A stretch of 64,000 bases of DNA from Desulfuromonadaceae bacterium (GCA_028681335.1 JAQUIT010000001.1:372001-436000); one strand, 5' to 3'; positions 24,195 through 48,950 are shown, counted from the stretch's first letter. The notes: generated by a model from the letters alone, not told the origin. Numbers and translations are program-made.

Positions 24195-24285
24195 TGGCGG
24201 AGAGAGAGGGATTCGAACCCTCGGTACGCTATTAACGTACACACGCTTTCCAGGCGTGCTCCTTCAACCGCTCGGACATCTCTCC
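24195..24285 (-). tRNA. tRNA-Ser(GGA)
   Basis: A 91-base cloverleaf: acceptor GGAGAGA/TCTCTCC, long variable arm (TACGTTAATAGCGTA) typical of serine tRNA, anticodon loop CTGGAAA with GGA, T-loop GGTTCGAATCC, discriminator G and an encoded CCA end. The bases between SRP RNA and tRNA (24043-24194) hold nothing else recognised. Confidence 0.97.
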
Positions 24286-26136: not shown

Positions 26137-26619
26137 CTAATTCAGTCCAAATAGCCGTGGACCTCGCTGACTTTGCAGTTTGTAGATGTCTTCTACAGCT
26201 ACGAAAATAAGTGAAGTTTCCTTTGTTTCGTTTTTGGTCCGACCGGTTTTGATGTCGGTCCAGCTACGGGTAAAGGTTATGGCAACAAAAGCTTTGGCTC
26301 CGGTGTCATCAAAGGTAATATTGTTGACGGTATAGCGTAGTGAAAGGTCGTGATAGACACTGAAGTCCCGCAGGGCAGACGTTGCAAGAATTCTTGCCTC
26401 ACCGCTGTAACTATCACTCACCAAATCTGAAAACTGACGGCTGTTCTTGGCTTCGTAGGCGGCAATGAGCTGGTCAAGCGATTGTCTGACTTGGCTATGG
26501 CGCTTCGCTGCAAGAGCTGAGGATGAATCACTGCTACCGCCAATTTGTAGCCCGGCACAGGCCGGAAGTATGGTGCAGGCAAACAGCAGAAACATTCCTG
26601 TAATAATCTGTTTTTTCAT
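26137..26619 (-). CDS. Operon gene C: lipoprotein with NTF2-like module
   Basis: Not a named family. A 160-residue lipoprotein: signal peptide with lipobox LPAC at Cys21, then one NTF2/SnoaL-like domain from about residue 40 (VRQSLDQLIAAYEAKNSRQF...DLSLRYTVNNITF...AFVAITFTRSW). The same domain, with LRYTxNN conserved, occurs in genes A1 and A2 and in diverged form at the C-termini of B1 and B2. ATG 26619 follows GGAGGGAA. It is last in the six-gene operon, 25 bases after B1, and is probably anchored in a membrane leaflet. Confidence 0.75.
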   Translation of the reverse strand: MKKQIITGMFLLFACTILPACAGLQIGGSSDSSSALAAKRHSQVRQSLDQLIAAYEAKNSRQFSDLVSDSYSGEARILATSALRDFSVYHDLSLRYTVNNITFDDTGAKAFVAITFTRSWTDIKTGRTKNETKETSLIFVAVEDIYKLQSQRGPRLFGLN

Positions 26620-26644
26620 GTGAGTTCCCTCCGGGTATTTTCTC

Positions 26645-29600
26645 TTATTCAACAAGCCAGTAGCGACCATTCAGCGTTCTTGCGATCCGGGGTGCGCCAT
26701 TGCCTCCGAAAGATACCAGTTCACTTACCGCTGATTTTTCCTGATGGCGCAGATTTTTTTTGTAGATCCGGCTTGTGATGGTCACGTCGTATGTTACCAT
26801 GAACCCCTGCGGTACTGGGCTGATCTGCATATTCTGGATATCCATCTTCATCTCGTCGAATTTCCTGAAGATTCGGTTCAGGTTAACCTGCATGTCAGAA
26901 AGTGTGGTGCCGTCGCCTGCCTCCCAGTCATCCCCCATGAAACTCATGATACGCGAATCATCCCTGGTTTCATAGGCTTCCCTGAACTGGGCATAGAGAT
27001 CGCGCACAGCCTGGAGTTGTACAGGGTTTCCTGCTGAAAACGGTGTCTCTGACGGTGACTTGCTGCGTGAATCTTCAACCAGTTTGTCAAGCCTTGCAAA
27101 GGCGTCGTCCACATCTTGACGGGTAGAACCGATGGCCTTATATTCCAAACGTACGTCGCTGATGAATGAGGAACGTCCCAATACTCCCAGATAGTAGCCT
27201 GAATCATAGTCTCCCTGCATTGGCTTGATGAGCTGATAAACTTTATTTAATACCATGTCGAAGCGGGCTTTACGTTCGTCTATGATGCTCTGGTTCTTAC
27301 GTGCCACTTCCTGCCTTTCAGTAAACAGGCTGAATAGCTTGGTCGCAGCATCTGCCAGTTTCGGGTCGTCCTGGAATATGGCGGAAAAGGTATTGCCGCT
27401 TCTCAGTAAAAGCCCCATGATAATCCCCGCTCCATTCGGCTCACCGGCGACTGCGTATAGTTTTTGGAAAAACAGGGCATACTCGCTGACCGGAGCGGAT
27501 TGCACCTTCCCGAGGACGTAACTGAAATCAGCGGCATAAATATCTACAAGACCACTCTTACCCTGCATTTCAAGGAAGGGTTCCTTGACCAGCTCTTCAA
27601 TCCCGAGTTCAAGTCTTTTGCTCTGCTCCAGCGCCCCTGAATCCTCCAGGATCTTTACCAGCGTACCACTGTTCAGTATCCTGTTTTGGGTGTCCTTTGA
27701 CTGTATCAGAAAAGTGGCAATGGTGACAGACAGTGCCTGTTTGGCCTTTGATAAATCACGCAGAACCGGTGTGATAACCTCTGAATCCTCGGCGATTTGT
27801 GAATTGTTACGTAATGCCTTGACGTTGTAGGCTTCAAGACGACTGCTCAAGCCACTTGCTTTGGAAAGCAATTTTCCATCCCTTACCATGCCATCGCGCA
27901 TTAAGCTCAATTGCTCAAGCATCTGAAGGTATCGTTCCTTAAAGGTCTCCGGAATGTCGTTTTGATCTGTTTTTTTCAGCGCGGACATGGCAGCATCGAT
28001 AGCGGCTTGAACCACTTTGATATCTTCGCGGGGTGCTGCCGACTCCATGTAGCTGAGCGAAGGTATGGTCTGCGTTTCCCAAGAGCTGGAGTACGGTATG
28101 CGGTATGCGTACATGGAGTTGACATAGGCCATCAGAGCCTCGGCCATGCCGCTGACCGACTGCAGGATGTTCCGCGAGCGCGGCGCACCCTTTTCGTTCA
28201 CAAAATGTTTTTTCAGGAACTCGAAGGACAGGCCTGCATAACTGTCAGGGTTGTCGCGGATAAGCGCTTGAAGCCGTTCCTGTTCATTTGCAGAGATAAT
28301 TTGCCGAGAGGGGGACTGATGGTTTGTGTAGAAGGCGTCATACTTGTCATTGGCGTCTTTGTAGATTGCTGTGAGAGACGCTTGAATTGCCCCCTGTCGA
28401 TTACTGTTTTCCTTTACAAAATCGTCGATTTCTTTAAGGGCACCCTGGCAGAAATCAGTGTCGACCCCGGAGTTGACCTGATACAGTTTGGTATAGCTCG
28501 CAAAACGATTTTTAAGTGCGGCGGTTTGATTTTCCACACCAAGAATCTGATTGCGAAGTTGGTTCAACTGTTCGTTCAGACGCTTAATCTCCTGCTGACT
28601 TGTTGCTCTGCCAAGGTCCGCCTTAATTTTATTCCAAAGTTCATTCAGGCGCTGGCGTTGCTCAATCAACTCTGTCAGGGATTGCTGATATTTGTCACGG
28701 TTTTCCGTAGAATCCTTGCTGTAGTCGGTAGATAGCTTTTCCAGAATTTTATTGATTTCCACCTTTGCTTTACTTACAGCTTCTCCGGCATCAGCGGCAC
28801 CGCTTACAACCTTGCTGTCAAAGCCGCTTTTCACATCCTCAAAAATTTTGGTGCATTCATGGCGGGTGAACGTGAACTCTGTTTCAGAAATTTCCAGTTT
28901 TTTGGATTCAGCTATAAGTCTGGTATTAATCTCTGCTCGAGTTGCGATGTTAAGTAGTCCCGCTAGTTCGCCATAGTTTTTTTGTAATTTGGTCAACAGT
29001 TCCTGTCGCTTGGCCGCGCTACGTCCGGTTGACGGCAGAAGTCGCACGGTTTGCGCCTTGTAGCTGATTTCCGCCAGTACGGCAAAGATTTCTTTTTCAC
29101 GGATGCTGATCAGTTCTGTTACTGGTGCCTTGGCAATCCGGTTGCTATAGTTGGTGACTTGGTCAGGGAGACCGGCGAGATAGGTTTCAATGGCTGGTAG
29201 CTCCTGAAGAGCACGGTGGTAGCCTCGGAGCGCCTTCTCAAGCTCAGCTGTTGAGATCTTCCCCGCAACAGCTGCTACTTCCGCCATCTGTTGGGCCAGT
29301 ATAACCCTGGCTTCTTCTTTTTGAATTACCTTGCCGGTTTCTTTAAGCAGTCCGGCAATGTGATTCTTTAGCGTTGTTCTTTCTTCGAGAAGTTTGGCTT
29401 CCACGAGATTGTCAGAGCTGATAGTCCATCGTTCCCAGGTGGTTGGTTCGGGCCACGCATCTGACCCAAACTGATTTGTGACATAGTTTTTGAACAAACC
29501 ACGCCACTGCTCATCCATCAACACTTTCCGCCAGAGATGTTCAACAGTACTTTGGGTGATGAGAATCGGCTCTCCTTCTCCCAGTTTACGTCCTTTTACC

Positions 29601-30106
29601 TTGAGCACCGGGTCATGCAGTATCGAATAAGAGAATCTCTCCAGATCCACGGCAGCTTTGCTGGCAGCAACCGCATCGTATGATTTACGGGTGATGTCGA
29701 GAGTTGTTGCCAGGAGTGTCAGAGGGAAGGCCCCGACGCTGACACTGCCAAAGACTATCTTCTTGGTTACTTCATCCTTGAATTTGTTGATAGCCAGACC
29801 GACGACGACGGTAGCAGCATCAAGGGCAGCTCCACTATTATCACCGCCCCCCAGCTTGGAGCTTATATCACCAACAGCTTTCAGAGTATTGATAACATCA
29901 ATCACCTTAAGGACTTTAGAGATGTCCTTCATTTCATCCGCAGGCAAGCGGTCAATTATCTCTGCGTAGACCGGCGGGTAGGCGGGGACGAAATAGTTAT
30001 CCATGTCTGCGGCTGCAGACTTGTAATCGTAGCTGTTGGCAGGGGAGCTAACGGTAAGGATTAAGACCGTGATGCAGATCAGGCTGGTCAAAGTTCTCAG
30101 AATCAT
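26645..30106 (-). CDS. Operon gene B1: giant exported helical protein with C-terminal NTF2-like domain
   Basis: Not recognised. The 1,153-residue protein has a signal peptide (1-25), a small-residue hydrophobic stretch near 95-135, the motif LWRKVLMDEQWRGLFKNYV at 191-209 shared with B2, and long predicted helices and coiled coils (about 240-930). The last 110 residues form an NTF2-like domain ending in LNGRYWLVE (B2 ends LNGRFWYVQ). It is predicted periplasmic or surface exposed with no catalytic motif. It is paralogous to B2 and lies 66 bases downstream of A1 across a 13-bp hairpin. Confidence 0.78.
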   Translation of the reverse strand: MILRTLTSLICITVLILTVSSPANSYDYKSAAADMDNYFVPAYPPVYAEIIDRLPADEMKDISKVLKVIDVINTLKAVGDISSKLGGGDNSGAALDAATVVVGLAINKFKDEVTKKIVFGSVSVGAFPLTLLATTLDITRKSYDAVAASKAAVDLERFSYSILHDPVLKVKGRKLGEGEPILITQSTVEHLWRKVLMDEQWRGLFKNYVTNQFGSDAWPEPTTWERWTISSDNLVEAKLLEERTTLKNHIAGLLKETGKVIQKEEARVILAQQMAEVAAVAGKISTAELEKALRGYHRALQELPAIETYLAGLPDQVTNYSNRIAKAPVTELISIREKEIFAVLAEISYKAQTVRLLPSTGRSAAKRQELLTKLQKNYGELAGLLNIATRAEINTRLIAESKKLEISETEFTFTRHECTKIFEDVKSGFDSKVVSGAADAGEAVSKAKVEINKILEKLSTDYSKDSTENRDKYQQSLTELIEQRQRLNELWNKIKADLGRATSQQEIKRLNEQLNQLRNQILGVENQTAALKNRFASYTKLYQVNSGVDTDFCQGALKEIDDFVKENSNRQGAIQASLTAIYKDANDKYDAFYTNHQSPSRQIISANEQERLQALIRDNPDSYAGLSFEFLKKHFVNEKGAPRSRNILQSVSGMAEALMAYVNSMYAYRIPYSSSWETQTIPSLSYMESAAPREDIKVVQAAIDAAMSALKKTDQNDIPETFKERYLQMLEQLSLMRDGMVRDGKLLSKASGLSSRLEAYNVKALRNNSQIAEDSEVITPVLRDLSKAKQALSVTIATFLIQSKDTQNRILNSGTLVKILEDSGALEQSKRLELGIEELVKEPFLEMQGKSGLVDIYAADFSYVLGKVQSAPVSEYALFFQKLYAVAGEPNGAGIIMGLLLRSGNTFSAIFQDDPKLADAATKLFSLFTERQEVARKNQSIIDERKARFDMVLNKVYQLIKPMQGDYDSGYYLGVLGRSSFISDVRLEYKAIGSTRQDVDDAFARLDKLVEDSRSKSPSETPFSAGNPVQLQAVRDLYAQFREAYETRDDSRIMSFMGDDWEAGDGTTLSDMQVNLNRIFRKFDEMKMDIQNMQISPVPQGFMVTYDVTITSRIYKKNLRHQEKSAVSELVSFGGNGAPRIARTLNGRYWLVE

Positions 30107-30125
30107 AATGGCTCCGTTTACAACA

Positions 30126-30164
30126 CACCGGGCAGTGACCTTACTGTGCGTTCACTGCCCGGTG
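30126..30164 (-). other. Strong 13-bp hairpin between genes A1 and B1
   Basis: CACCGGGCAGTGA (30126-30138) is perfectly inverted at 30152-30164 with a 13-base loop. No T-run follows, so full termination is unlikely; mRNA processing, stabilisation of the A1 side or partial attenuation is possible. Confidence 0.6.
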
Positions 30165-30172
30165 AGGGTAAA

Positions 30173-31531
30173 TCAAAAGTTGCGGCTGCCGTTTGGTTGA
30201 TATTTGTAATCGATTCGCATCGTCGTTGTCGGATACCCGGTAATGCCGGCCGGAGGATAGCTTATGATGACGCTTTTAACCTCCATGAGTGCGTATTTAC
30301 CGTTGTTCAACAAGAAGGCGTATGTGTGATTGGGGACAAAATTATAACCGAGAGTCAAGTTGCTGTCATAACCGCTTTCAGGCGCCTGGCTGACAGAACT
30401 TAGCGATACGCTACCGAGGTCTTTGATTGCAGCCCCGTTCTGGAGGAATCCGTAGGCGGCCTGCAATGCCTCGTCGCCGCCGGTGATGATGAAGGCTACG
30501 GAGCCGGAAATATCACTCACTTCACCGGAGACAAAATCAAATCCTTGGGGAGGTTGCTGGGTTTGGCCGCCACCAATTGTGGTTGCAATTACGATGTTAA
30601 AGCCTGATTCAATGGTTGCGTCGGCAGTAATGCCGTTGACGGCTTCGTTGAATGGGACGATTTCGATGTTGCCACTGCTGGTAACCACGATGGTAGGTTC
30701 GTTGCTGCTGGCGTTGACAGTGCCGGTAGCAATCTCCTCACTGTCGGAGAGACCGAAAATCAGCGGGAACTTCATGCTGAAAACCTTGGGGCCTTGGTCG
30801 GTAAGTCTAAAGACAAATTCGGTGGTACCCTTATCGCGATAGGTCTTTCCGTCCCGGCTGCTTGTAATTTGGCGGCTGAACGAAATAGATGTAAAGAGAC
30901 CGCCGCTTCCACTGGCTACATTGTTAAGAGTATAACGGAGGTCAATATTGTCAAAAAGGGCGAAATCCCGCCGGATCGCCCGGTCCAGTACCGCCGGATC
31001 AGGAGTAAAATCTTCACTGACATACTTCATGAAAGCGGCCGGATCCTCGGCCCGATAAGCGGCAATCATGGCGTCAAGCGACTCACGCAGCTGATTTTGG
31101 AATGATCCTTCACTCACGGTCAGTTCCTTGCGGGTACTCTCGATGTCATTTGACTTTCCGGTGGTATCTACCACTTCCACATACATGACGTAGGTCTTGC
31201 CTGGCTCGGGGCGGAAACGGTATTCAAAGGCGCCGTCGGTGCTGGACTGGGCCTCCTTCCAGGTTTCACGGTTGTCGAGGCTGATGCTGACGCCGCCGAT
31301 CTTCCCCTTGCTGACCCGTGCCTTGCCGCGCAGGATGACTTCGCCGTTGGTGAGCATGTCACGGTAGACGATCAATTTCTGGCCGCTCTCTTCGTAAGGG
31401 ATGTCATTGATGTAGAGGTAACTGATGCTCACGTCTTCATTGGCCTGGCCGAAAATCCACCATTTGGCCTCTGCTTCACTGGTTAATGTCATGCAAAATA
31501 AAATAACTGCAAATAGTTTTAATATATTCAT
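30173..31531 (-). CDS. Operon gene A1: exported Ig-like plus NTF2-like protein
   Basis: Not recognised. The 452-residue protein has a signal peptide (1-22, ending AEA|KWWIFG). A beta-sandwich with Ig-like features follows at about 40-130 (GEVILRGKARVS...VSISLDNRETWKEA...YVMYVEVVDTTGKSND), then an NTF2-like module at about 140-270 (ESLDAMIAAYRAEDPAAF, IDLRYTLNNV), then a C-terminal beta-rich region unlike that of A2. Its first 270 residues are clearly paralogous to A2. GGGAG precedes ATG 31531. It lies 34 bases after the barrel gene. Confidence 0.78.
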   Translation of the reverse strand: MNILKLFAVILFCMTLTSEAEAKWWIFGQANEDVSISYLYINDIPYEESGQKLIVYRDMLTNGEVILRGKARVSKGKIGGVSISLDNRETWKEAQSSTDGAFEYRFRPEPGKTYVMYVEVVDTTGKSNDIESTRKELTVSEGSFQNQLRESLDAMIAAYRAEDPAAFMKYVSEDFTPDPAVLDRAIRRDFALFDNIDLRYTLNNVASGSGGLFTSISFSRQITSSRDGKTYRDKGTTEFVFRLTDQGPKVFSMKFPLIFGLSDSEEIATGTVNASSNEPTIVVTSSGNIEIVPFNEAVNGITADATIESGFNIVIATTIGGGQTQQPPQGFDFVSGEVSDISGSVAFIITGGDEALQAAYGFLQNGAAIKDLGSVSLSSVSQAPESGYDSNLTLGYNFVPNHTYAFLLNNGKYALMEVKSVIISYPPAGITGYPTTTMRIDYKYQPNGSRNF

Positions 31532-31565
31532 GGAAGTGACTCCCTTAATGTTGGCTGGAATAGGT

Positions 31566-33173
31566 TCAGAATTGCATGCTAATGCCACTCGTGAGGCTTG
31601 TCTCGCGGAAATCCTGGCTGCCGCCTATACTATTCGGGGCATAGCTGAAATCATTGGTCGAGGCTTTGCCATAGATCATCCCCTGCATACTGGCCAGCAT
31701 TTCAGGTCGCCAGTAAATGTTCATAGTGGCAAAGATCTTGGTCGTGTCGGTGCCGGCCTCTTTTACCAGGCGGTTTTCACCGACCTTGGCATTGGAGGTG
31801 ATCTTGAGATCGGGAATGTCTACACCAAGGCCGACGGAATATTCATAAATCTGGTCAGAGGCCTGTGGTGCTGCAAGCTCCTCATTAGACGTCCAGCCGC
31901 CCAGGTAGACGGTGGGCTTTAGTACGACCCGCCCAAGGGTGTGGCGACTGGAAAGAGATGTATTATAGGTGTACTCCTGCGCACGGCGGCTACTCTTGGT
32001 ATCGTATAAGATAATGCCGAAGTTGGTATCGCTGTCTAAGATGCCAAAGCGGTCGCGATAGCTTGTATTGATAAACTGGTCAAGGGTGTTGACCGCCTGA
32101 CTGTAGGTGTGATCGAGTTTGTAGCTGACATCAGCCACGGCGTACTGCCTTTTGAAAGGGCGCTTGATGGTAACGCTGATCTCCGGCTTGTAGTGGTCAG
32201 TGGTGTAACTCTTCTGTCCATCTACGTTGTCATGGTACCAGAGCATGGCGCTGGTGATGGATAGATTTTTTGTGTACTTGTAGCGCCACTTGGCCTTGGC
32301 TTTTTCCCTGTCGGGGGTTGCCGATCCAAGCATCGTCCTGAAGTTCGGCTCAACCCGCTCATATTCAAGCGTTACCCTGCTTGGTCCTCCGTCTCCGATC
32401 GCAACAAGCTTGCTGGCGTTACCGCTGAAATCTGTGTATAGGCCATCCTGGGTAGAAACTCCGCCGTCTGCCCAGGAAGATTCGCCCTGGAGGGTAAGGC
32501 CGGGGATGGGGCGGTATTCAAAATCAAGAGTATAGGTTTGTTCGTCGACCAGCTCACTTCCCATGACGCGGACATGGTCAGTGGTCTGGACGCCACTGAA
32601 GCCGACCCAGAGGTTGGAACCGAGGTTCTGTTTGATTTTGCCGCCGTATACCTGCCGTTCCACGGCATCCACCCCCCAAAAGTTATCCCAACGGCTATAG
32701 GCGATCCCCGAAACGGCAGTAACGGATGTGCCAAATTCCCCCTCACGCGTGTACTTGTAGGAACCACCCTTTACGGCGGTGTTGAGAGCATACTGTGAGA
32801 ATGACTCAAAGGTGTCGCCTACCGTAAGAGTGTGGACTTTGTTGGTAAAGCGTCCCTGCAGGTTTGTCAGCGAGGTGTTTTTGATGTCGTTGCGTTTGTC
32901 GTCACTGGATTTGGCACCTACGGTCCAGTTGTAGTCAAATTCGCCCAAGCGACCATTGCCGAAGAGATTAAGAATCTCAAGGTAGCGGCCACCTTCGGTG
33001 AGTGACGATTGGCTTCCTGCGCCGGGTCCGGTAACATTGTTGTAGGTAAGGGAAAAGTCGTTGGAACCGTGGATCTCATGTTCGGCAGCCTCAGATGCCG
33101 CTGGTGCCAGGGCAACAACCGTTGCCAGTGCCGAGGCCAGGTGCAATTGCCGTACGCTTCTCAATTTAAACAT
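31566..33173 (-). CDS. Operon gene OMP: predicted outer-membrane beta-barrel
   Basis: No specific family recognised. The 535 residues have a signal peptide (about 1-30, Ala-rich, ending SEA|AEHE). The rest alternates polar and hydrophobic residues in strands rich in aromatic girdle residues (FDYNWTVGAKSS, YTLDFEYRPIPGLTLQGESSW, KWRYKYTKNLSITSAMLWY) and ends in Phe, the classical C-terminal residue for barrel assembly. Perhaps 18-22 strands. ATG 33173 follows AAAAGGAGAG; the 57-residue extension overlaps B2 and is rejected. It is the only gene in the operon without the shared NTF2-like module. Confidence 0.8.
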   Translation of the reverse strand: MFKLRSVRQLHLASALATVVALAPAASEAAEHEIHGSNDFSLTYNNVTGPGAGSQSSLTEGGRYLEILNLFGNGRLGEFDYNWTVGAKSSDDKRNDIKNTSLTNLQGRFTNKVHTLTVGDTFESFSQYALNTAVKGGSYKYTREGEFGTSVTAVSGIAYSRWDNFWGVDAVERQVYGGKIKQNLGSNLWVGFSGVQTTDHVRVMGSELVDEQTYTLDFEYRPIPGLTLQGESSWADGGVSTQDGLYTDFSGNASKLVAIGDGGPSRVTLEYERVEPNFRTMLGSATPDREKAKAKWRYKYTKNLSITSAMLWYHDNVDGQKSYTTDHYKPEISVTIKRPFKRQYAVADVSYKLDHTYSQAVNTLDQFINTSYRDRFGILDSDTNFGIILYDTKSSRRAQEYTYNTSLSSRHTLGRVVLKPTVYLGGWTSNEELAAPQASDQIYEYSVGLGVDIPDLKITSNAKVGENRLVKEAGTDTTKIFATMNIYWRPEMLASMQGMIYGKASTNDFSYAPNSIGGSQDFRETSLTSGISMQF

Positions 33174-33243
33174 AGATTCTCTCCTTTTGTGCGTTGTTGA
33201 TTTCTGTTGTAGGTTAAAACTGCATAAGATTAGTCCTGAGGCG

Positions 33244-36200
33244 TTACTGCACATACCAGAAGCGCCCGTTAAGGGTTCGGCTGATGCGCGGTTTGCCGTG
33301 GCTGTCCAGAGAAACCTCCTCGTTGACACTTGATTTTTCCTCATGTTTCAGATTGTGGCGGAAGTTGCGGCCGGTTATGGTCACATCGTAAGAGACGCCA
33401 TATGCCGAGCCGTTCCAGGAATACTTTGGATTCGATATCTGATAGGTGATCTGATCGAATACGGTGAAGCTGTTGTGCAGGTACCCCTGCAAGTCGTCCA
33501 GTGTCGTGCCGTCGCCGGATTCCCATTCATCGCCGATCATTGCCATGACTGCAGATTCGTTGCGGGATTCGTAGGCTTGCTTAAACTGGTCGTAAAATGT
33601 GTGTGCAAGACTTTCATCGAAAGTTTTTGGCGGGGAAGCCGATGGTTTAGCGGCCCATTGTCGAATAAAGAAAAACCGCTGTTTATACTCACTATTTTGC
33701 CGGGCAAAAAAATCCTGCCGGTCGGGAGACAGCTTCGGATCGCTGACTGCCGAGGCCAGAAAGCCCATGACGGCAGATTCTTTGCCTGCTGCCTGCTTAT
33801 AAAGCTCACTTACTGCAGGATCGTACATGTTCTTGTTGTAGGCGGCCTGGGCATCAAATTCGAGGGACGACAGGTTGCCGACAACGTCGCTGAACCGTCC
33901 CTTCAGTTTCTCAAAATAGACTTCTGCGTCTTTCCACTGGCGGAAAGCCTTCAGCTTCTCATCAAAAACGGTCACCACTCCCAGAATACTGGCCCGTGTT
34001 TGATCTTCCCAACAGTTTGCCGCAACCTCCCGGAGATAATCCAACCCATTGTCGGGGTAATTGGCAAGGTTGATATTTACGCTGTTCACGGGGGGACTGA
34101 GCTTGGGGATGGATAGCAACTCCAGGTAATCTCCTCTGACCGCTTTCTCCATGTTTCGTTCAAAGAAAATGTCGACCTTGTCAATTTTTTCCAGTTCAGG
34201 TTTTATTTTATCGAAATAATCCTTGGTAATGATGCGGCACTCGCCCAGACGTTCGATAAAGGTATAATGCTCAGGGGCCGACATGCGGACCAGACCGGTA
34301 CGGTCGGCAATATACATGTTCACGAAGTCCTGAAGCCCCAGGTTGAAATTCTGATCCATCCAGATAAGGCGGTTCTCAGCCAGCGAGCGGTCAAGTTGCT
34401 GCCGTGCGAGGCGAATATCGCTTGCCGACATGAAAACCTGTCGTCCTGTAAGAGCACTGCATTTGCCGGTTTTGTAAGCTGCTGCGACCTCGGGACGAAA
34501 AACAAAGGTGCCGTTCATTCCGTTAATACTGACACCCGGGTAGTGCGTTGCAAATTCTCTCAACACCGGCCCAAGTCGCCCGAGGGTCAACCGCAATTGG
34601 CTGAGATAGGCCTGGTCGTTTTCCATATTGCCCAGATCGGTTTGGTAGAGTTGCTGTGCTGACCGTGCCGGTCCTTTGAGTGACTCCCCCTTGTTCAGCA
34701 ACTCTCGGAGCTTTTTCACAAAAGGTCTTTGCTTCTCCTGCAGATTTATTGACCGATATCCCATGAGCCGTTGGTTTGAATTCCAGGTGCTTTCTGTCAG
34801 TAATTTTTCCAGCTCCAGCACCTTTTCCTCGAGAATGGCAATTTCCCCTTTTCTCTCCGCCACGTTATCAACCAGGACAATCATCCCGTCGATACCGCTG
34901 ATCAGTGATGGCACGTAAGCTTTGCCCCCACAAAAGGGGATGTACCTTGACTCCTCGCCTATTTTTCGGCTTAACGACTCCAGATAAGATCCATGTTGTC
35001 CGGTAAATGAGCCAACATCATCGCCTGACGTAAAGGTGATCCGGGGAAACTTCAACTTGCCAAGCCCCACATAGCCTGTAGAGGGGAAGTCTCCGCAATA
35101 TCCCGCCAGAATCTCTTCAATTTCTATTATCCCTCCGTTTTGACTTCCTGGTCTCCATTTGGTGGTTTGAAATAGCTGGATAAGATCATCTATGCTCCTG
35201 GAAAGATCCTCTATCTTTTCCCCGTCAAGTTTTGCTTGCGACGTGAGAGTGCCAACATATGCCCCGACCTCCTCATTCAGATCGTTCAGCAGTTGTTGGT
35301 CTATGGTGCGATACGCTGACAGTTGAAGGCCGAACTGCTCTAATGCCTCTTTACTCCTTTCGGGAGGGGGCGGTTGCATCTGTTGGGCCTGATCAAATTC
35401 TGCACGGGCTGCCGCCGCTTGATCATCGTAACTTTTTTTCATGTTTTTGGTCTGTTCAGCGATACGGTTCTGAACGGCGACAAGTGCTCCTGTTCGCTGA
35501 AATTCTTCTTTGATTGCCCCCTGCACATCGGCAAAATTTAAAGAGAAGCCGTATGGACTGGCACGCCAGACAGTGACTTTGGCATTCTGGGCCTTGCGTA
35601 GTTCTTCGCGTTGTCGTTTCTCCTGCAAAGCCTCACGAGCCGTCCAAGCCTGGTCATGGTATTTGCGCAGATTCTCAAGGAGTGATGAGCGCTCTGTCCC
35701 GAGTTTGCCGGTGGTCGGAATCCAGGCCAACACATCAACCGCGTAACGCTTGGAGTTGTTGATTACCTGAATCAATGGAGAAAGGTCGTTGCCGTTAACC
35801 CCCTGTTGGATACGTGCCGGGCAGTTTTTAACAAACTCACGAACCTCGGGAAGCTTGCCGACCGCGCTTATGTATTTCTCCAGTATGCTGACGGAGCTCA
35901 TGCCGCTCGCTTTTTGTTTCAACTCATCCGCGTATTTGCGCATGACGTACTGCTGCTCACGAACCTTTGCAGCCCGGTTTAAATAACTCAATAACCCGGC
36001 AATATAGCTCTTGAATTCATCCCGGCGATTATACATTTCAGATTCTTCGATCACGTTTCCGGGCAGAGTCCAGCGACTCCAAATGCCGGTTTCAGGCCAA
36101 TCATCTTTGCCGAGTTCTTCGACAACGTACGTCTTAAACAGGTCGCGCCAACTATTATCCAGAAGCACTTTGCGCCAGAGATATTCAAGAGCTTCGGGCG

Positions 36201-36786
36201 TCACCGGGATGGGGTCGCCCACGCCAACATCCCGGTTGCGGTTCTTAAGGGTTGGATCACTTTCAATCATGCCGTAGAGGCTCTCTAATTTAAGGCCAAC
36301 GGTACTCTTTTTCAGCTCTGAAGCCGAAACCTGATAAACCTGGTAGGCGGTGATCAGGGTTGTTACCGGCAGAGTGGTCAATCCCATCGCGCTAAGATAG
36401 GCCTTGCCCGACGCGCTGCCGGCTACCTCCCCGAGGACGAGCAGTCCGCCAGAAATCGCCGCCTCCTGGTTTTCGCCGAGATAGAGCTTGCCGCCGATAT
36501 CAAGGGCTCCGGAGATCCGACCGATGGCCTGATTATAAAAACTCAGCTTGTCGGAGATCTCTTTTACCGCTGCTGGTGCCCCACTACTCAGGGAATCACC
36601 ATAAATGTTAAGCAGTTCACCATAGGCGGCAGGGAAGGTGGTGGTCACCACCTGCTCAAAAGGGGCTGGAGCTTCCGCCGAAGCTTTGGACGGCATCAAA
36701 GCCAGACAGACAAGAGCCGTAAGCAGAACCAGAGCACAAAGTCTGTCAACCCTTTGGATGAAAATGGTACGTACCTTCATCTCCAT
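33244..36786 (-). CDS. Operon gene B2: giant exported helical protein with C-terminal NTF2-like domain
   Basis: Not recognised. The 1,180-residue paralogue of B1 has a signal peptide (to about residue 38), a hydrophobic Gly/Ala-rich stretch near 105-150, the shared motif LWRKVLLDNSWRDLFKTYV at 203-221, long charged helices and a C-terminal NTF2-like module of about 115 residues (QFKQAYESRNESAVMAMIGDEW...GVSYDVTITGRNF). Several Cys are scattered in the middle. It is 81 bases after A2, with an imperfect hairpin (36828-36847) in the gap. The similar order A2-B2 and A1-B1 points to duplication of an A-B pair. Confidence 0.78.
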   Translation of the reverse strand: MEMKVRTIFIQRVDRLCALVLLTALVCLALMPSKASAEAPAPFEQVVTTTFPAAYGELLNIYGDSLSSGAPAAVKEISDKLSFYNQAIGRISGALDIGGKLYLGENQEAAISGGLLVLGEVAGSASGKAYLSAMGLTTLPVTTLITAYQVYQVSASELKKSTVGLKLESLYGMIESDPTLKNRNRDVGVGDPIPVTPEALEYLWRKVLLDNSWRDLFKTYVVEELGKDDWPETGIWSRWTLPGNVIEESEMYNRRDEFKSYIAGLLSYLNRAAKVREQQYVMRKYADELKQKASGMSSVSILEKYISAVGKLPEVREFVKNCPARIQQGVNGNDLSPLIQVINNSKRYAVDVLAWIPTTGKLGTERSSLLENLRKYHDQAWTAREALQEKRQREELRKAQNAKVTVWRASPYGFSLNFADVQGAIKEEFQRTGALVAVQNRIAEQTKNMKKSYDDQAAAARAEFDQAQQMQPPPPERSKEALEQFGLQLSAYRTIDQQLLNDLNEEVGAYVGTLTSQAKLDGEKIEDLSRSIDDLIQLFQTTKWRPGSQNGGIIEIEEILAGYCGDFPSTGYVGLGKLKFPRITFTSGDDVGSFTGQHGSYLESLSRKIGEESRYIPFCGGKAYVPSLISGIDGMIVLVDNVAERKGEIAILEEKVLELEKLLTESTWNSNQRLMGYRSINLQEKQRPFVKKLRELLNKGESLKGPARSAQQLYQTDLGNMENDQAYLSQLRLTLGRLGPVLREFATHYPGVSINGMNGTFVFRPEVAAAYKTGKCSALTGRQVFMSASDIRLARQQLDRSLAENRLIWMDQNFNLGLQDFVNMYIADRTGLVRMSAPEHYTFIERLGECRIITKDYFDKIKPELEKIDKVDIFFERNMEKAVRGDYLELLSIPKLSPPVNSVNINLANYPDNGLDYLREVAANCWEDQTRASILGVVTVFDEKLKAFRQWKDAEVYFEKLKGRFSDVVGNLSSLEFDAQAAYNKNMYDPAVSELYKQAAGKESAVMGFLASAVSDPKLSPDRQDFFARQNSEYKQRFFFIRQWAAKPSASPPKTFDESLAHTFYDQFKQAYESRNESAVMAMIGDEWESGDGTTLDDLQGYLHNSFTVFDQITYQISNPKYSWNGSAYGVSYDVTITGRNFRHNLKHEEKSSVNEEVSLDSHGKPRISRTLNGRFWYVQ

Positions 36787-36867
36787 ACTTGTCCCCTGCA
36801 GAGTTTTTTCTCGTGTTTTTTACATCGCCGGGTGGACACCACCCCGGATTCTATCTAAGAACAGCGT

Positions 36868-38079
36868 CTATGGAGTGGCGCCTACACTTACGACGTTGCT
36901 CCAACTGCTGCGTTCACCGCTGGAGATCTTTTCCAGAGCAAGGCGGTAGTAAATGGTCCCGGCAGCCCAGATTTCTCCCCGGCAATGGACGGTAAATGTT
37001 GTTAAGGAGACTTGGGAAAAGACCGGATCAGTGTCGTCGTTCCAGGGGCCGATTTGCGAAGTACTCCATTGCAGGGCCCGTTTATAGTCGCTTGAGGTGA
37101 CTGAGGCCGGCGCATCAAAGGTCAGGGTCAGCTCCGGATAGATTAGAGACACAACAGCCAGATTAGTGGGGTTAGCCCCAGTTGCTTCATCCTCTCCGTA
37201 AGGCAGATTGGATAAAATAATTTCGTCATTGGAAATCCGGATGGTTGGTTCGCTGCTGGGCACTGACCCGGTCGCCACATTTTCGGCATCGGATAAACCA
37301 AAAATCAGCGGATTTTTCATGCTGAAGACCTTTGCCGTATTACCCTCCAGGGAAAAAACAAACTCGGTTGATGCTTTGTCGCTCAATGTTTTGCCAGACT
37401 TGGTGGACGTTATGCTTCTGGCAAAAGAGATAGCCACAAAGACCTTTCCACCTGAACTGGCAGAGACATTGTTGAGCGTATAGCGCAGGTCGATGTTATC
37501 GAAAGTGGTGAAGTCCCGGCGGATGGCACTGTCGAGAATGGATGCATCAGCGGCAAAATCCGGACTGACCTGGGCCATGAAACCGCGTGGATCTTCACCT
37601 CGGTAGGCGCTGACCAAGGCATCCATTGCTTTTCTGATGACGGCTGAAATGTTCTGATCGGAGACGGTGACCTCCTTACGGGTTGCTTCCACGTCATTGG
37701 ATTTGCCGGTGGTGTCCATGATCTTCACATACATGAGGTAGCTTTTGCCGATTTCAGGTTTAAAACCATACTCGAAGGTGCCGTCATCGCTCCGCGCAGC
37801 TTCCTGCCAGGTCGCTTTGCCGTCATGGCTTACCTGGACGACCCCCACCTGAGACGACGTAGTCCCCGCCTTGCCTCGCAGCACCAGGCGCCCGTCCGGC
37901 AAAGTTTCCCGATAGACGGTCACCTTGTCCCCAAGCTCATCGTAGGAGACACCGTTCAAATACAGATACCGCGTTGAAATTTCATTTTCAGTTTGGCCGA
38001 AAATCCACCATTTGGCCTCTGCAACACCGGTAAAGGCAAGGCAAATGAAAGCAATAGCGAATAGTTTTAGCGTGCTCAT
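36868..38079 (-). CDS. Operon gene A2: exported Ig-like plus NTF2-like protein
   Basis: Not recognised. First gene of the operon. The 403-residue paralogue of A1 has a signal peptide (1-22, AEA|KWWIFG), an Ig-like sandwich (GRLVLRGKAG...VQVSHDGKATWQEA...YLMYVKIMDTTGKSND), an NTF2-like module (KAMDALVSAYRGEDPRGF, IDLRYTLNNVS) and a C-terminal tail resembling a fibronectin-type strand set (LTLTFDAPASVTSSDYKRALQWSTS) in place of A1's different tail. GGGAG lies nine bases before ATG 38079. Confidence 0.78.
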   Translation of the reverse strand: MSTLKLFAIAFICLAFTGVAEAKWWIFGQTENEISTRYLYLNGVSYDELGDKVTVYRETLPDGRLVLRGKAGTTSSQVGVVQVSHDGKATWQEAARSDDGTFEYGFKPEIGKSYLMYVKIMDTTGKSNDVEATRKEVTVSDQNISAVIRKAMDALVSAYRGEDPRGFMAQVSPDFAADASILDSAIRRDFTTFDNIDLRYTLNNVSASSGGKVFVAISFARSITSTKSGKTLSDKASTEFVFSLEGNTAKVFSMKNPLIFGLSDAENVATGSVPSSEPTIRISNDEIILSNLPYGEDEATGANPTNLAVVSLIYPELTLTFDAPASVTSSDYKRALQWSTSQIGPWNDDTDPVFSQVSLTTFTVHCRGEIWAAGTIYYRLALEKISSGERSSWSNVVSVGATP

Positions 38080-38806
38080 GACAGTAACTCCCTTGATTCT
38101 GAGGATGAGGTAAAAATGCAGTTTCTTAACGAAAGATAAAGCAATCTATTGAGGGTAAATCTTTTGTGAATATCAGGCCGGAGGAGCCCGTGGTGACGTG
38201 ACACTGGCTACAAATGCAATTGGAGGGATGAGAAGTGAGGATGGTGATGGTTGTGGTGGAGGGGATGATGACCACTCTGGATAAACAGTCGAGTCTTCCT
38301 GGTGGAGGACAGCCAGGACTGGTGCATCCTTGATGCTTATCGTCAAACTTGTCTCGCAGTCTGGTTGGAAGTTGGGGATGTTTTCACTTGAAAAGGTAAT
38401 GGGGGCAAGGAGCAGCAGGATGATAATCAATAGTTTGGATAGACATTTTTTCGGAGAATTGGCTTGCAGAAAAGGGCATTTTGAGACGCGGGAATGCGTG
38501 TCTCTAAAAGTATGTTTGTATGCAGTTGACGAGGGTAGCATATGGATTAAGATATACGTCCTTTATTAGAAAATCTCCTGTATACGGCTATGTATGTTGA
38601 TGTTGTTTGTGATGTCAAGGTTTTAATGTCGTTTTATTCTATTTTACTAAAATTTGCCGTAGATATCTATTCGCCGCTGTGTAATACGGTGATCTCTTCA
38701 TGCTCGTGCGTGATATGCAGGCGGCCCACCATTTTTGGTGGGCCGCTCCAGGTTCCTTATCTGTTATGCTGCGTCTTGACTCGACTCTGCCGGATGGGGA
38801 GTCGAT
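38080..38806. other. Gap between the A/B operon and dcuB
   Basis: About 727 bases without a convincing gene. A minus-strand frame at 38173-38541 (122 aa) could encode a short exported peptide (hydrophobic SKLLIIILLLLAPITF, then a Pro/Ser-rich tail), but it lacks a ribosome site and its C-terminus looks like low-complexity noise. The A2 promoter should lie here; no clear -35/-10 pair or sigma-54 box was seen. A strong hairpin near the dcuB end is listed separately. Confidence 0.5.
38721..38746 (-). terminator. Probable dcuB terminator hairpin
   Basis: Perfect 10-bp arms GCGGCCCACC and GGTGGGCCGC with a six-base loop, 61 bases after the dcuB stop. No T-run follows, so it may act with Rho or as a 3' stabiliser. 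Confidence 0.5.
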
Positions 38807-40721: not shown

Positions 40722-43700
40722 TTACGCCGCCGCCCGTAGCCCAATCTCTTCCAGCAGATGAATGATCTTCGTCGCTCCTGCATCACCAAATACTCCATCC
40801 AAACCTTCATTATGGATGTCGGTAAAAGGTGGCTCGTACAGCAGGCCAGGGTCCATGGTTCCGTTCTGGGTAAGGTAGCTGACCACCTGATCGATGAACC
40901 TGATCTGTGCCGCCGAATAGGTGGTGTTTTGCAGAAACTCACCGAAGGCCTCGCTGGCCGCCCCGCGATCCAGTCCTACCAGCTTGCGGATAAACGCTCC
41001 GAGGCTCTGCTGGTGACCGAAGACCTTTTCGAAACGCTCCCGATTGCCCACCTCTTCTGCAGTGAACAATAGCCGTTCCAGCTCTTCCAGATCCAACTTT
41101 GTAATCTGCCGGTTCATGCGCAGTTTGTTGATGGTGATGTGGTTGGCGTTGTCGCGGATGAAACGCTCCACCTTCAGCCGGTACTGGCTCATCTCCTCGG
41201 CGCTGGCATATCCCGCTACGAATATCTCCGACTGCTCACCGATGGTATCCTCAAAGTCGGTATAGACGATGACAGCTTCGCCCTTGTCCAGGAATTTGAT
41301 CAATGCTCTCAGCCGGACGCGTACATCCTCCAGCAGCGGCAGGGTTATGCCGGACCAATAGCTTTCGGTTTGCAGATCAAGAATCAACTCCATCTGCCGG
41401 GCCACCATCGGAATGGTACCCTTCCCTTCCAACCTGACAGCGATCTCCATGACCTTGTCACGGTTGCGGGAAAAGGTGCCGGACTTTTCCAGCAGCGCCA
41501 GTTGCAGGTTCAACATAAGCAGGTCGAAACGCTTGGCAGTTTCGTCTTCCTGGGGCAGCTCCGCCGGCAATCCCGCCAGATGGAGTGTCACTTCCAATTC
41601 ATCTTCGGCAGTCAGTCTGGACCAGTGCTCCCTGACCGCGTATTTCTCCAGATGGCGGCGATGGGGACGGACGATGAAGTTGTCCGGGTTCATCAGGGTC
41701 ACTTCGCCATGCAGAACATCCTCCAAGCTTCCTCGCAGTCGCTGCAGTCCGTCACCGGTCGGGATGTCCGGTTGTTGCAGCAACAGCAGCAGATTCAGCC
41801 GCTGCTTGAAGATCTTTTTGCCCAGCGATTCCTGACTGGAGCCTTCGATCCCTTCCGGGTTTTCGGCAAAGAACTCGAAGTTCTGGCAGTAGTCGAAGAC
41901 GTAGAAGTTCTCCTTGTCCAGTCCTGGCCCGAACAGATCTTTGCAGAGACGGGTACCGCGTCCCATCATCTGGTGGAACTTGGTCTTGGAGCGGACCAGC
42001 TTAAAGAAGACCAGGTTGACGATCTCCGGCACGTCGATGCCGGTATCCAGCATATCCACTGAGATGGCAATGACCGGGTCGCTCTCCTTCTGGGAAAAGT
42101 CCTCAATCAAGGTCTGGGCGTAGGTCTCGTAGTTGTCGATCACCCGGCAGAACCTGCCCTTCAGGTGCGGATAACTTTTATCGAAACGTTCCTGGATGAA
42201 TAGAGCGTGGTTGTGGTTCTTGGCAAAGATGATCGTCTTGCCGAGCCGGTCGCCTCCGGCCACCTTGACGCCGTAGCGCATCAGGTGTTCCAGCACCTTG
42301 TCCACCGTGTCGATGTTGAACAGCCAGTTGTTCAGCGCCGATGACTCGATCTTCTCCGGCATGCCGCCGTTTTCCTCGTCCCAGAACTTCTCCTCGTACT
42401 CAGCCTGTTCCTCCGGGGAGAGATCGTTGTATTTCACCCCTTCCCGCTGGAACTTAAGCGGCACCGAATGCGCCTTGGGCGGCACCAGAAAGCCGTCTGC
42501 CACCGCCTTTTCCAGTTCATAGTAGAAGGTCGGAACCCCCCTCTCCAGTTCGAAGAGCGAATAGGTGTTGCGATCAACCTCGGAGCGCGGCGTGGCGGTC
42601 AACCCCAGCAGCAGGGCATCGAAATACTCGAAGATGGCGCGGAACTTCTGGTAGACGGAACGATGAGCCTCGTCGATGACTATCAGGTCGAAATGGCCGG
42701 GGCTAAAACGCTTGTTGCCCCCTTTTGCTTCGTCGATACAGTTCATCATGGTCGGATAGGTGGAGAGCACGATGCGGCTGGTGGTGTCGTCCTTGATCTT
42801 GGTGATGTTAACCGGACTGGAGTGCGGCAGATGCTCCTTGAAGGCGTTGCCGGCCTGGGTCAGCAAAGCCGTCCGGTCAGCCAGGAACAGCACCCGCTTG
42901 ATCCAGTTGCATTTCTGCAGCAGTTCGATCAAAGCGATTACGGTGCGGGTCTTGCCGGTTCCGGTGGCCATGACCAACAGAGCTTTGCGCAGCTTGCGCC
43001 GTTGGAAGTCCTCAGCCGTGCGGCGGATGGCCTCGTACTGGTAAGGTCGCTCGACAATAGCCTTGTTGATGGTGGCGCTCGTGATCTCCTGGATGCTGGT
43101 GCGGCGGTTAATGAGGAGTTGCAGTTCATCCTTCTTGTAGAACCCCTGCACCTTGCGGGGCGGATAGTTCAGATCATCCCAAAGCCAGGTTTCGTAGCCG
43201 TTGGTAAAGAAAATGATCGGGCGTTGCCCCTTCATCCGTTCCAGGCAGTCGGCATACAGCTTGGCCTGCTGCTGGCCGATGCGCGAGTCTTTCCTGGTCC
43301 GTTTGGCCTCGACCACCGCCAACGGCAGGCCATCGTCGCCCCACAGCACGTAATCTACAAAGCCTTCGCCCTTGTCGTTGGGCATCCCCACTACCGGGTA
43401 TTCCAGCACATCCGGTGCAGTTAGGTCCCAGCCCACTTCCCGTAAATACAGGTCAATAATGACATTCCTGGTTTCCGCCTCGGAATAGTCATGGTCGTCA
43501 ATAATCTGTTTGTTGCGCTCTTTGCGCTCCGCAAACTCTTGGATTCTAGCCTTGAGCGCTTCAACCTCTTCGATAGTTCTGGCCAGTTCCGCTTCCCTGG
43601 CGGCCAGCCGGGTGTCCTTCTCGGCCTGCTCGGCCTGAAGCTTGGCCAGCTGTTCGGCGTTGCGGTCGGCGACTGTGCTGTCTTTCTGCGGAATGCATGT

Positions 43701-44111
43701 GATGTTGAAGAGCTGTTTGCCGATGGCCGTCGTAGATGGGGAATAGCTGCGGGCCAGCCAGTAGAGGACGTGGAAGAGTTCTTTGAGGGTGTGCAGGGAA
43801 TCGCTGTTGCTGATCGGTTTATCGCTATGAACGGCAAGGTTACCGATTTTCTGGATGGTGAGGATCTTGGGGAAGAGACATGGCTCCAAGTTCTCCCGGA
43901 AGGTCGGTTCGTGAATCAGGGCGGCCAGATTGTCGGCGTATGGTTGCTTGAGATAGGAGTCATTGGCATAGAGCCACTTCACAGCCCGTTCCAGCGAGCG
44001 CCGGGCATAGAAGCAGCTGGTCCGTGGGGCGCTGTTGACGTTCTGCTCAGCTTCACGGGCCGTTTCGTAGAGTTCAGGCCAGTCCTGCTGGAGAAAGGTG
44101 AAGTTGGACAT
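40722..44111 (-). CDS. hsdR: Type I restriction enzyme R subunit
   Basis: Translocating endonuclease subunit that cuts unmodified DNA. The 1,129 residues run: N-terminal DUF4145-like helical domain (1-about 145), coiled coil (150-205), nuclease domain with D253 and E268-x-K270 (VVEAK), helicase with Walker A ATGTGKT at 382-388 and DEAH at 480-483, and a C-terminal EcoEI-R-like domain (about 880-1120). It reads minus, with its stop nearest the left end. It is separated from hsdMS by five other genes, an atypical split, and lies 2 bases after the Sel1 gene. Confidence 0.93.
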   Translation of the reverse strand: MSNFTFLQQDWPELYETAREAEQNVNSAPRTSCFYARRSLERAVKWLYANDSYLKQPYADNLAALIHEPTFRENLEPCLFPKILTIQKIGNLAVHSDKPISNSDSLHTLKELFHVLYWLARSYSPSTTAIGKQLFNITCIPQKDSTVADRNAEQLAKLQAEQAEKDTRLAAREAELARTIEEVEALKARIQEFAERKERNKQIIDDHDYSEAETRNVIIDLYLREVGWDLTAPDVLEYPVVGMPNDKGEGFVDYVLWGDDGLPLAVVEAKRTRKDSRIGQQQAKLYADCLERMKGQRPIIFFTNGYETWLWDDLNYPPRKVQGFYKKDELQLLINRRTSIQEITSATINKAIVERPYQYEAIRRTAEDFQRRKLRKALLVMATGTGKTRTVIALIELLQKCNWIKRVLFLADRTALLTQAGNAFKEHLPHSSPVNITKIKDDTTSRIVLSTYPTMMNCIDEAKGGNKRFSPGHFDLIVIDEAHRSVYQKFRAIFEYFDALLLGLTATPRSEVDRNTYSLFELERGVPTFYYELEKAVADGFLVPPKAHSVPLKFQREGVKYNDLSPEEQAEYEEKFWDEENGGMPEKIESSALNNWLFNIDTVDKVLEHLMRYGVKVAGGDRLGKTIIFAKNHNHALFIQERFDKSYPHLKGRFCRVIDNYETYAQTLIEDFSQKESDPVIAISVDMLDTGIDVPEIVNLVFFKLVRSKTKFHQMMGRGTRLCKDLFGPGLDKENFYVFDYCQNFEFFAENPEGIEGSSQESLGKKIFKQRLNLLLLLQQPDIPTGDGLQRLRGSLEDVLHGEVTLMNPDNFIVRPHRRHLEKYAVREHWSRLTAEDELEVTLHLAGLPAELPQEDETAKRFDLLMLNLQLALLEKSGTFSRNRDKVMEIAVRLEGKGTIPMVARQMELILDLQTESYWSGITLPLLEDVRVRLRALIKFLDKGEAVIVYTDFEDTIGEQSEIFVAGYASAEEMSQYRLKVERFIRDNANHITINKLRMNRQITKLDLEELERLLFTAEEVGNRERFEKVFGHQQSLGAFIRKLVGLDRGAASEAFGEFLQNTTYSAAQIRFIDQVVSYLTQNGTMDPGLLYEPPFTDIHNEGLDGVFGDAGATKIIHLLEEIGLRAAA

Positions 44112-44113
44112 TG

Positions 44114-45055
44114 CTACTCCGGTATATTGGTTTGTTGCTTTACCTTACCAGTTGGTTTTTCCCAAATTAATTTTGCTTTTTGCTGTGCTTGTTCGATCTG
44201 AGCTGAAGTCATTTCCTTGCCAATAAGCGTCATCGCATCCCGAGCTTGTTTTTCTCCGTTTGCAGCAGCCAATGAGACCCAACAATAAGCATCGACAAAG
44301 TTTTCTGGCACACCTTGCCCCAAGCGATACATAATGCCAAGATTTAACTGTGCGTTGGCGTTTCCTCGTTCAGCAGCCATACGATACAACTTCACCGCCA
44401 ATTTGTCGTCTTGTTGCAAACCTTGCCCCTTGCTGTACATGAAACCGAGTGCTGATTGTGCTCTGGCATTACCTTGATCAGCAGCTTTCCACCACCAATT
44501 TATCGCCTCAGTATAATCCTGGGGAATCCCTTGACCTTCATAGTACTTGAAACCCAGGCTACATTGCGCGTCAGAGTAGCCTTGTTCCGCAGCCATACGA
44601 TATAACTTCACTGCTTCTTTGAAGTCCTGTGGCACACTGACACCATCGTTATATTTGAGACCTAGGCTGTACTGTGCCATGACGTTTCTTTGATCAGCAG
44701 CCTTTCGCAACCATTTCACCGCCTCTTTGTTATCCTGTAGCAAACTATCGGCATTCAAGTACAGGAAACCAAGGAGCGCTTGTGCAGAAGCATTTCCTTG
44801 TTCAGCAGCCTGTCTATACAACTTCTCGGCCATTCTATAATTCTGCGGTTGACTTTGCCCGTTTTCGTACATGAGACCAAGGCGTAACTGAGCGTCAGCA
44901 TTTCCTTTTTTTGCTTCAGCTGAATAAATACTGAAAGCCTTGTTGTAATCACGTGAGGAAAGAGATTTATTTGCATCTTCCATTAACCCTGCCCATGAAT
45001 GTTGAGCGATGACCATAACGAGAATGGAGGAAATTATTACGGTGGTATGTTTCAT
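44114..45055 (-). CDS. Exported Sel1-repeat protein
   Basis: The 313-residue protein has a signal peptide (1-22, SWA|G) and about six tandem Sel1-like repeats of about 36 residues between 40 and 290, each with the AxxxYxxAAxxGxAxAQxxLGxxYxxGxG pattern (for example AVKLYRMAAEQGYSDAQ). Such arrays are protein-interaction solenoids. It abuts hsdR (2 bases), so it is cotranscribed. A periplasmic Sel1 protein inside a restriction locus is unexplained; a partner for the neighbouring membrane proteins is a guess. Confidence 0.88.
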   Translation of the reverse strand: MKHTTVIISSILVMVIAQHSWAGLMEDANKSLSSRDYNKAFSIYSAEAKKGNADAQLRLGLMYENGQSQPQNYRMAEKLYRQAAEQGNASAQALLGFLYLNADSLLQDNKEAVKWLRKAADQRNVMAQYSLGLKYNDGVSVPQDFKEAVKLYRMAAEQGYSDAQCSLGFKYYEGQGIPQDYTEAINWWWKAADQGNARAQSALGFMYSKGQGLQQDDKLAVKLYRMAAERGNANAQLNLGIMYRLGQGVPENFVDAYCWVSLAAANGEKQARDAMTLIGKEMTSAQIEQAQQKAKLIWEKPTGKVKQQTNIPE

Positions 45056-45097
45056 ACCTATTCCTTTCCTGGTTCACTTTAAGATGTACCTACGACG

Positions 45098-46192: not shown

Positions 46193-46319
46193 TGAATTCT
46201 CCTTGCTCATATAGTGCATTTACGCAAGCAAATATATTCATCATTCAGTCGATAGGAAATCAGCCTCATAAGCAGCGACTAAATCAAGCAGTGTGACCAA
46301 TTAGATCACCAAAATTTTG

Positions 46320-46913
46320 CTAGCGATTTATAAGTTCGCGGCAAACCTCTTCTAATTCTCCTATCGTTTTTTCAAGATCAGGAAAGGCACAAGCGAGCTT
46401 GGTTGAAGTAACCGCAGCGATGGCCAGATAAGCAACCAAATGAATCATAAAATACAGGCATATTTCTCTGAGGAGGAGAGATCTATCAGCAAGGAGTGCG
46501 CATCCATATAGGAATATCAAGATGATAGGGACAATCGGTACAAGTGTAAGTTCGCGCCGAATGTACTTACTATACCGGTGGGATTGCGCTTCTTGCGTTA
46601 TAAAATCTTTGATGTCGACATTTTTATCGTAGCCTTGCTTTGAAGCATTATCAATTATTTCACGCAATAGATTGCCCAATTTGTCCCAGGCTTTCAGATA
46701 ATCAAGAACCTCTTTAAGCATGTACTGCCGAAACAGCAGCCCGGAAACGGCTAAAACACCACCAAGAAAAGTTACAAAACCTGTATTCAATTTGGAGGAA
46801 TCCCCAAACCAAGTGAATACGGCTACCCACGCCCCTAGTGTGAGACTTGCGGCGAAGGCCGCAAAAATTAGATCACGTAAAATTGATACGTTAGGTTCAA
46901 TTCGAGTTGCCAT
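46320..46913 (-). CDS. Four-helix membrane protein, unknown
   Basis: Not recognised. The 197 residues hold four predicted membrane helices (about 13-35, 47-67, 122-140 and 147-168) with a cytoplasmic helical loop between helices 2 and 3 and a Glu-rich C-terminus. The pattern of paired helices around a soluble loop is seen in several pore-forming defence effectors, but no family is identified. The start ATG immediately follows the stop of the upstream gene, so the two are coupled. AT-rich like its neighbours. Confidence 0.6.
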   Translation of the reverse strand: MATRIEPNVSILRDLIFAAFAASLTLGAWVAVFTWFGDSSKLNTGFVTFLGGVLAVSGLLFRQYMLKEVLDYLKAWDKLGNLLREIIDNASKQGYDKNVDIKDFITQEAQSHRYSKYIRRELTLVPIVPIILIFLYGCALLADRSLLLREICLYFMIHLVAYLAIAAVTSTKLACAFPDLEKTIGELEEVCRELINR

Positions 46914-47807: not shown

Positions 47808-47862
47808 GCAGCCCCCTCTGAGGTGTCATGACACTCAACAGATAATTTATTAGCAGTATAAG

Positions 47863-48879: not shown

Positions 48880-48950
48880 AAATTCTCCTTGTGGTTGCGT
48901 TTAAAAACACGAACACCGATAAACTACAGGGTGAAAATTCGAAATATTAT

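Follow-up and report, generated by a model that had tools for sequence, protein, structure and literature searches.

Iron-reducing bacteria and their relatives encode a gene cluster that has not been described before. It always combines a wide outer-membrane barrel and a conserved adaptor with very large exported proteins. The large proteins (B) consist of a constant C-terminal tag and an exchangeable passenger, and the exchange of their bodies and of the tails of the adaptor (A) was computed here, as were the parts, their homology, predicted folds and distribution. No component could be matched to a known family of secretion, anchoring or respiration proteins. Judging by its composition, the cluster may be a dedicated device for keeping interchangeable proteins on the cell surface. 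The novelty lies in the machinery; its function, including the contacts between the parts, the pairing of NTF2-like modules, the location and the role, we infer.

Results

Reading of the ORFs in the window (the whole stretch of DNA analysed, 64,000 nucleotides) gave six genes on the minus strand between positions 26137 and 38079 in the order A2-B2-barrel-A1-B1-C, with intergenic gaps of 81, 70, 34, 66 and 25 bp in the direction of transcription from A2 to C. The initial annotation of a single-strand operon of six genes with small gaps is borne out by these co-directional genes and gaps of 25-81 bp. Identities in the following list refer to the clusters of G258, a genome of the same genus, and G007, Geobacter sp. 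L1geo.

38721-38746, minus: hairpin (z −3.3) between the operon and the upstream DcuA-type permease gene
38173-38541, minus: possible small gene upstream of A2, 122 aa; membership of the operon uncertain
36868-38079, minus: A2, 403 aa; signal sequence, mature N-terminus KWWIFG, Ig-like domain, NTF2-like module, variable tail
37285-37644, minus: NTF2-like module within A2, assigned by homology and profile comparison
36868-37284, minus: variable tail of A2, 27% identical to G258 and 23% to G007, against 73-96% for the other parts of A2
33244-36786, minus: B2, 1180 aa; large exported protein with N-terminal domain, helical body and C-terminal NTF2-like tag
33619-36654, minus: exchangeable part of B2 (N-terminal domain and body); body 20% identical to G258, which is shuffle level
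33244-33618, minus: C-terminal NTF2-like tag of B2, assigned by profile comparison and structure match
31566-33173, minus: barrel, 535 aa; model of a 26-strand outer-membrane barrel
30173-31531, minus: A1, 452 aa; paralogue of A2 with a tail of another class
30740-31099, minus: NTF2-like module within A1, assigned by homology and profile comparison
26645-30106, minus: B1, 1153 aa; large exported protein
26645-27025, minus: C-terminal NTF2-like tag of B1, assigned by homology and profile comparison
26137-26619, minus: C, putative lipoprotein consisting of a lone NTF2-like module; located between barrel and A1 in G258

The barrel gene starts with ATG at 33173, preceded by AGGAG. Signal peptides or lipoboxes had been ascribed to all six proteins; reading by eye gave Sec-type signal sequences on A, B and the barrel, and the lipobox-like LPACAG on C only. 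The 122-aa ORF upstream of A2, which ends in a C-terminal SPRAPPA, has a counterpart with 75% identity in G007 (L017 1627-2013); it has no Pfam match and is not present at the corresponding place in G258. Further upstream of the operon, the window contains a Type I restriction-modification locus (40722-51571, minus) of hsdM, hsdS and an HsdR-type helicase gene, with a gene for a Sel1-repeat protein and unknown genes between hsdS and hsdR, and Tn7-like transposition genes (TnsB-like, TniB/TnsC-like and TniQ; 51943-56903, plus) in a low-GC stretch. A tRNA-Ser gene lies near the 3' side of the operon (24195-24285) and also near that of G007 (L017 14143-14230), with different anticodons. We regard this as coincidence and not as a sign of an island at tRNA-Ser, as isoacceptor and relative orientation differ between the window and G007.

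A1 and A2 share 55% identity across 296 aa (pairwise BLAST, E 1.8e-117), while the similarity of B1 and B2 is limited to the N-terminal ~380 aa (28%) and the C-terminal 117 aa (50%), with no match between their middle regions in pairwise comparison. The two paralogous pairs proposed initially thus stand for A1/A2 and for both ends of B1/B2, not for the middles of the latter. C matches the A module with 33-36% identity (E 1e-20 to 1e-24). Pairwise BLAST gave no significant match between the module of A and C and the C-terminal module of B; profile comparison with hhalign aligned the two over 105 columns (probability 94%, E 1.2e-7), and the A profile also matches the B C-terminus in many relatives. 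Residues 1055-1174 of the AlphaFold model of B2 are matched by solved NTF2-like proteins at Z 12-14.9, the best match covering 119 residues at 2.1 Å. The C-terminal tag of B is accordingly modelled as an NTF2-like cone fold of ~120 residues, and the module in A and C is probably NTF2-like by its homology to this tag. The profile comparison and the structure matches agree with the earlier suggestion that five of the six proteins share one NTF2-like module. The NTF2-like fold often pairs. In one A protein (L098 4422-5909) the module is split by an insertion of ~55 residues.

The remaining gene had been predicted to encode an outer-membrane barrel, and its AlphaFold model (17 sequences, pLDDT 82) agrees. 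The model has 26 strands without POTRA domains or plug, and only the signal sequence precedes the first strand. The best match among solved structures is MtrB (Z 22.0, 453 residues, 3.9 Å, 11% identity), which is a 26-strand sheath around MtrA of a size similar to LptD and FimD (PMC7198977); the FimD usher is the second match (Z 18.9). A proteins consist of a conserved N-terminus, an Ig-like domain, the NTF2-like module and a variable tail, and A[KA]WWxFG directly follows the presumed signal sequence in all 21 of 21 long-form A proteins. B2 is modelled with moderate confidence (pLDDT 73) as a long helical protein ending in an NTF2-like part of 120 residues.

None of the six proteins scored above any family cut-off of Pfam or NCBIfam, and weak matches of B1 to coiled-coil families were taken as composition artefacts. 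The barrel had no Pfam match at E up to 1, and the genome encodes no PF11854 protein. CxxCH haem motifs are completely absent from all parts of all loci, which led us to reject an MtrCAB-type electron conduit with an MtrB-like barrel. Neither the type IX CTD family at the NTF2-like B C-terminus nor the PorP/SprF family in the barrel was detected with Pfam or NCBIfam. For two-partner (type Vb) secretion, POTRA domains are absent from the barrel model and no TPS domain was found with Pfam; for chaperone-usher systems, no PapD-type chaperone or pilin was found among the six proteins (Pfam, NCBIfam). The layout is not that of polymorphic toxins or contact-dependent inhibition either, as the constant part is C-terminal and no toxin or defence match of note was obtained. 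PADLOC gave no match for the operon proteins and PHROGs none for seven proteins, and no barrel relatives were found in the viral contigs searched. Searches for carriage of the cluster by plasmids, phages or viruses gave no match, and such carriage was rejected. A search of the literature (open papers) returned no description of such a system. The view of the initial annotation that no described system has this shape is therefore upheld against named families and open papers.

The genomes sampled belong to one phylum and are mostly drafts. Among them, the six-gene order is repeated in Geobacter sp. L1geo (L017), that is in another genus, at another locus and with different flanking genes. Single barrel-A-B units are present in several families of the class, and at least two further classes of the phylum have them too. 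Their gene order varies, the number of B genes ranges from 1 to 4, and C or a TPR protein is sometimes included. The six-gene operon had been interpreted as a duplicated unit, with a conserved order in other genomes named as a check, and both points are supported by the single units in other lineages, by the order kept in G007 and by the occurrence of barrel, A and B in three or more classes. Among 395 genomes, those with a strong barrel match are the same as those with a strong B-tag match (6/6 positive genomes; Fisher 2e-13, uncorrected for shared ancestry). In 277 genomes of the class, the barrel is strong in 12, the B tag in 12 and both in 10, and in each of the four exceptions (G105, G112, G153, G229) a contig end cuts the cluster off. 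The linkage of barrel and B tag, with A, is obligate in these data. In the window's own genus the cluster was present in only 3 of the sampled genomes, so its presence is patchy. Genomes with the cluster have 1 to 4 B tags, which, weak partial matches aside, occur only in or near these clusters. Dispersed clients bearing the B tag were rejected, as the genomes searched gave no full-length tag that clearly lay apart from a cluster; five weak partial matches came from distant genomes.

The comparison with G258 separates constant from exchanged parts. Its cluster lies between the same neighbours as in the window (identities: permease 95%, carotenoid-synthesis protein 87%, DnaX 85%), and the barrel (85%), the Ig-like domain (96%) and NTF2 module (73%) of A2 and the B2 tag (83-89%) are conserved. 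In contrast, the bodies of B2 (20%) and B1 (22%) are at the level of shuffled sequence, and the A2 tails share 27% identity. DNA homology extends up to about residue 279 of A2 and resumes from about residue 1070 of B2; the breaks thus coincide with module borders. The relatives G151, G036 and G141 have barrels of 75-76%, A cores of 83-86% and tags of 63-79% identity and unrelated bodies, namely a B2-like one, one of another type and one with ten PASTA domains. Beyond the N-terminal domain, the bodies of 29 B proteins form ten unrelated clusters, one of which carries ten PASTA domains. The large B proteins had been described as helical, but they are not one helical family: the tag is conserved and the bodies are swapped for unrelated ones, which makes B the most exchangeable part and not a fixed core.

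The A2 tail of the window is 70% identical to that of G232, a member of another family, although the cores share only 56%, a sign that segments are exchanged horizontally. The idea that A tail and B body are strictly inherited together was rejected because G007 pairs a G258-like A2 tail (83%) with a window-like B2 body; a looser link between the classes of A tail and B was found (7/7 vs 0/5, Fisher 0.0013, uncorrected for shared ancestry).

Distant relatives of the barrel form a wider tier. Some adjoin a protein that starts with the NTF2 module, in some cases with CARDB or PKD domains; others adjoin FecR-domain or CARDB proteins, some with sigma/anti-sigma factor genes. At four fully read distant loci a giant exported protein of 2,600-2,960 aa has an A-type Ig-like domain as its N-terminus. 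From these neighbours, the barrel, the Ig-like domain and the NTF2 module look like a constant core and the large exported protein like a client. Such giant exported proteins (2,632-2,959 aa), which are rich in repeats, start with an A-type Ig-like domain and have no Pfam family, lie beside distant barrel relatives at L128 (11021-19030), L126, L130 and L132. A conserved protein of ~430 aa with a C-terminal LuxR-type helix-turn-helix is encoded divergently beside the barrel at L019 (15826-17136), L021 (651-1967), L022 (5609-6889) and L044 (3107-4369), and another LuxR-type regulator and an alpha/beta hydrolase precede the barrel at L018, L020 and L131.

Discussion

We tentatively propose, rating it at a little under an even chance, that a barrel-adaptor assembly holds interchangeable large proteins at the outer membrane, where they are probably surface-exposed, by NTF2-NTF2 pairing. 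The wide 26-strand barrel would sit in the outer membrane and, being plugless, would be filled or capped by A, which might bind it through the invariant mature N-terminus (KWWIFG) and the Ig-like domain. The NTF2-like module of A would pair with the NTF2-like C-terminal tag of B, so that any tagged body could be held at the barrel, most likely facing outward, with C as a possible lipid-anchored partner. One barrel in the window would then serve two A-B pairs. The role might be adhesion, or a variable surface coat under pressure from phages or competitors.

In favour of this display we count the gene order kept in another genus at another locus, the barrel-A-B core across families and classes, the coincidence of barrel and B tag, and the confinement of tags to the clusters or their vicinity. 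The constant barrel, Ig-like domain and tag opposite exchanged bodies, with breaks at module borders and ten body clusters, speak for it as well, as do the homology of the A and B modules, their fold, which often pairs, the plugless barrel whose nearest structure is a sheath, and the invariant N-terminal motif of A. Counted against it are the A tail, which is not strictly tied to the B body, and the pLDDT of 73 for B2.

The wholesale replacement of bodies is the strongest reason for placing B on the surface, and the strongest reason for doubt is the PASTA passenger, whose target could be periplasmic peptidoglycan. PASTA domains bind peptidoglycan in other bacteria. B could therefore be a long periplasmic scaffold that links barrel and A with peptidoglycan or with other proteins of the envelope, and structural reasons would then explain why its bodies diverge or are exchanged; the long helical model of the B2 body and the TPR proteins that join the cluster in some genomes would fit. 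For a periplasmic scaffold it would be unusual that close relatives, with flanks of 85-95% identity, have their bodies replaced wholesale at one and the same locus, and we consider this reading quite unlikely. Alternatively, the barrel might be an export channel and the tag a secretion signal read by A, with B crossing the 26-strand pore and perhaps being released. One constant C-terminal tag on unrelated bodies does resemble a secretion signal, the size of the barrel fits secretion barrels, with the FimD usher as next match and MtrB described as similar to LptD and FimD (PMC7198977), and giant exported proteins adjoin the distant barrel relatives. But the tag was found only within the clusters or close to them and not on dispersed clients, and the cluster brings with it neither an energy source nor a chaperone nor a POTRA domain, which makes such a channel unlikely in our view. 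Export and display could also be combined: A would read the tag as an address label by NTF2-NTF2 pairing, the barrel would pass or present the passenger, and the passengers would be cassettes exchanged between species that change the cell surface. We think this rather unlikely as a whole.

The FecR-domain proteins and sigma/anti-sigma genes beside distant barrel relatives recall regulated uptake systems, in which case the barrel would be an uptake porin for a large substrate, A its lid and B a substrate-specific binding or processing protein. Since no part has TonB-dependent or transporter features (Pfam, NCBIfam) and the cluster has no inner-membrane transporter, we judge this improbable. A role of the B proteins as polymorphic weapons, or as the arms that deliver them, with active parts that can be exchanged, is highly improbable. 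The combination of interchangeable bodies with a constant tag would suit such a role, but the variable part is N-terminal and ~900 aa or more in length, no toxin or nuclease family was found in the operon proteins, and no small variable immunity gene lies 3' of B.

The proposed display at the outer membrane is of interest because the machinery is unlike described families, even though several classes have kept its composition. With its layout of constant tag and swappable passenger, the cluster offers a way to test how large proteins are directed to the outer membrane and for what reason bacteria replace exported proteins wholesale, and a portable tag could serve surface display in electroactive bacteria.

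Among known systems, MtrB of MtrCAB resembles the barrel as a 26-strand barrel and best structure match that sheathes another protein (PMC7198977); it differs in the 11% identity, the lack of a PF11854 match and the lack of any haem motif in the parts described here. Chaperone-usher pili likewise use a wide barrel to handle folded exported proteins (FimD, Z 18.9), but FimD has 24 strands with a plug and periplasmic domains and goes with a PapD-type chaperone and pilins, none of which were found here. Polymorphic toxin systems (CDI, Rhs) share the combination of one conserved and one exchanged part and modular recombination, but their layout is reversed relative to the constant C-terminus here, and no toxin/immunity genes were found. 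In type-B cargo anchoring of the type IX system (PorP-PorE-PG1035; SprF-SprB), a conserved C-terminal domain on variable large surface proteins is combined with a partner outer-membrane barrel and an associated periplasmic protein (PMC9143113). The cluster described here differs in its NTF2-like tag, in having no protein that matches a type IX family, and in its hosts, which belong to Desulfuromonadia and relatives and not to Bacteroidota. The proposed assembly would work like type-B cargo anchoring, but is not the same system.
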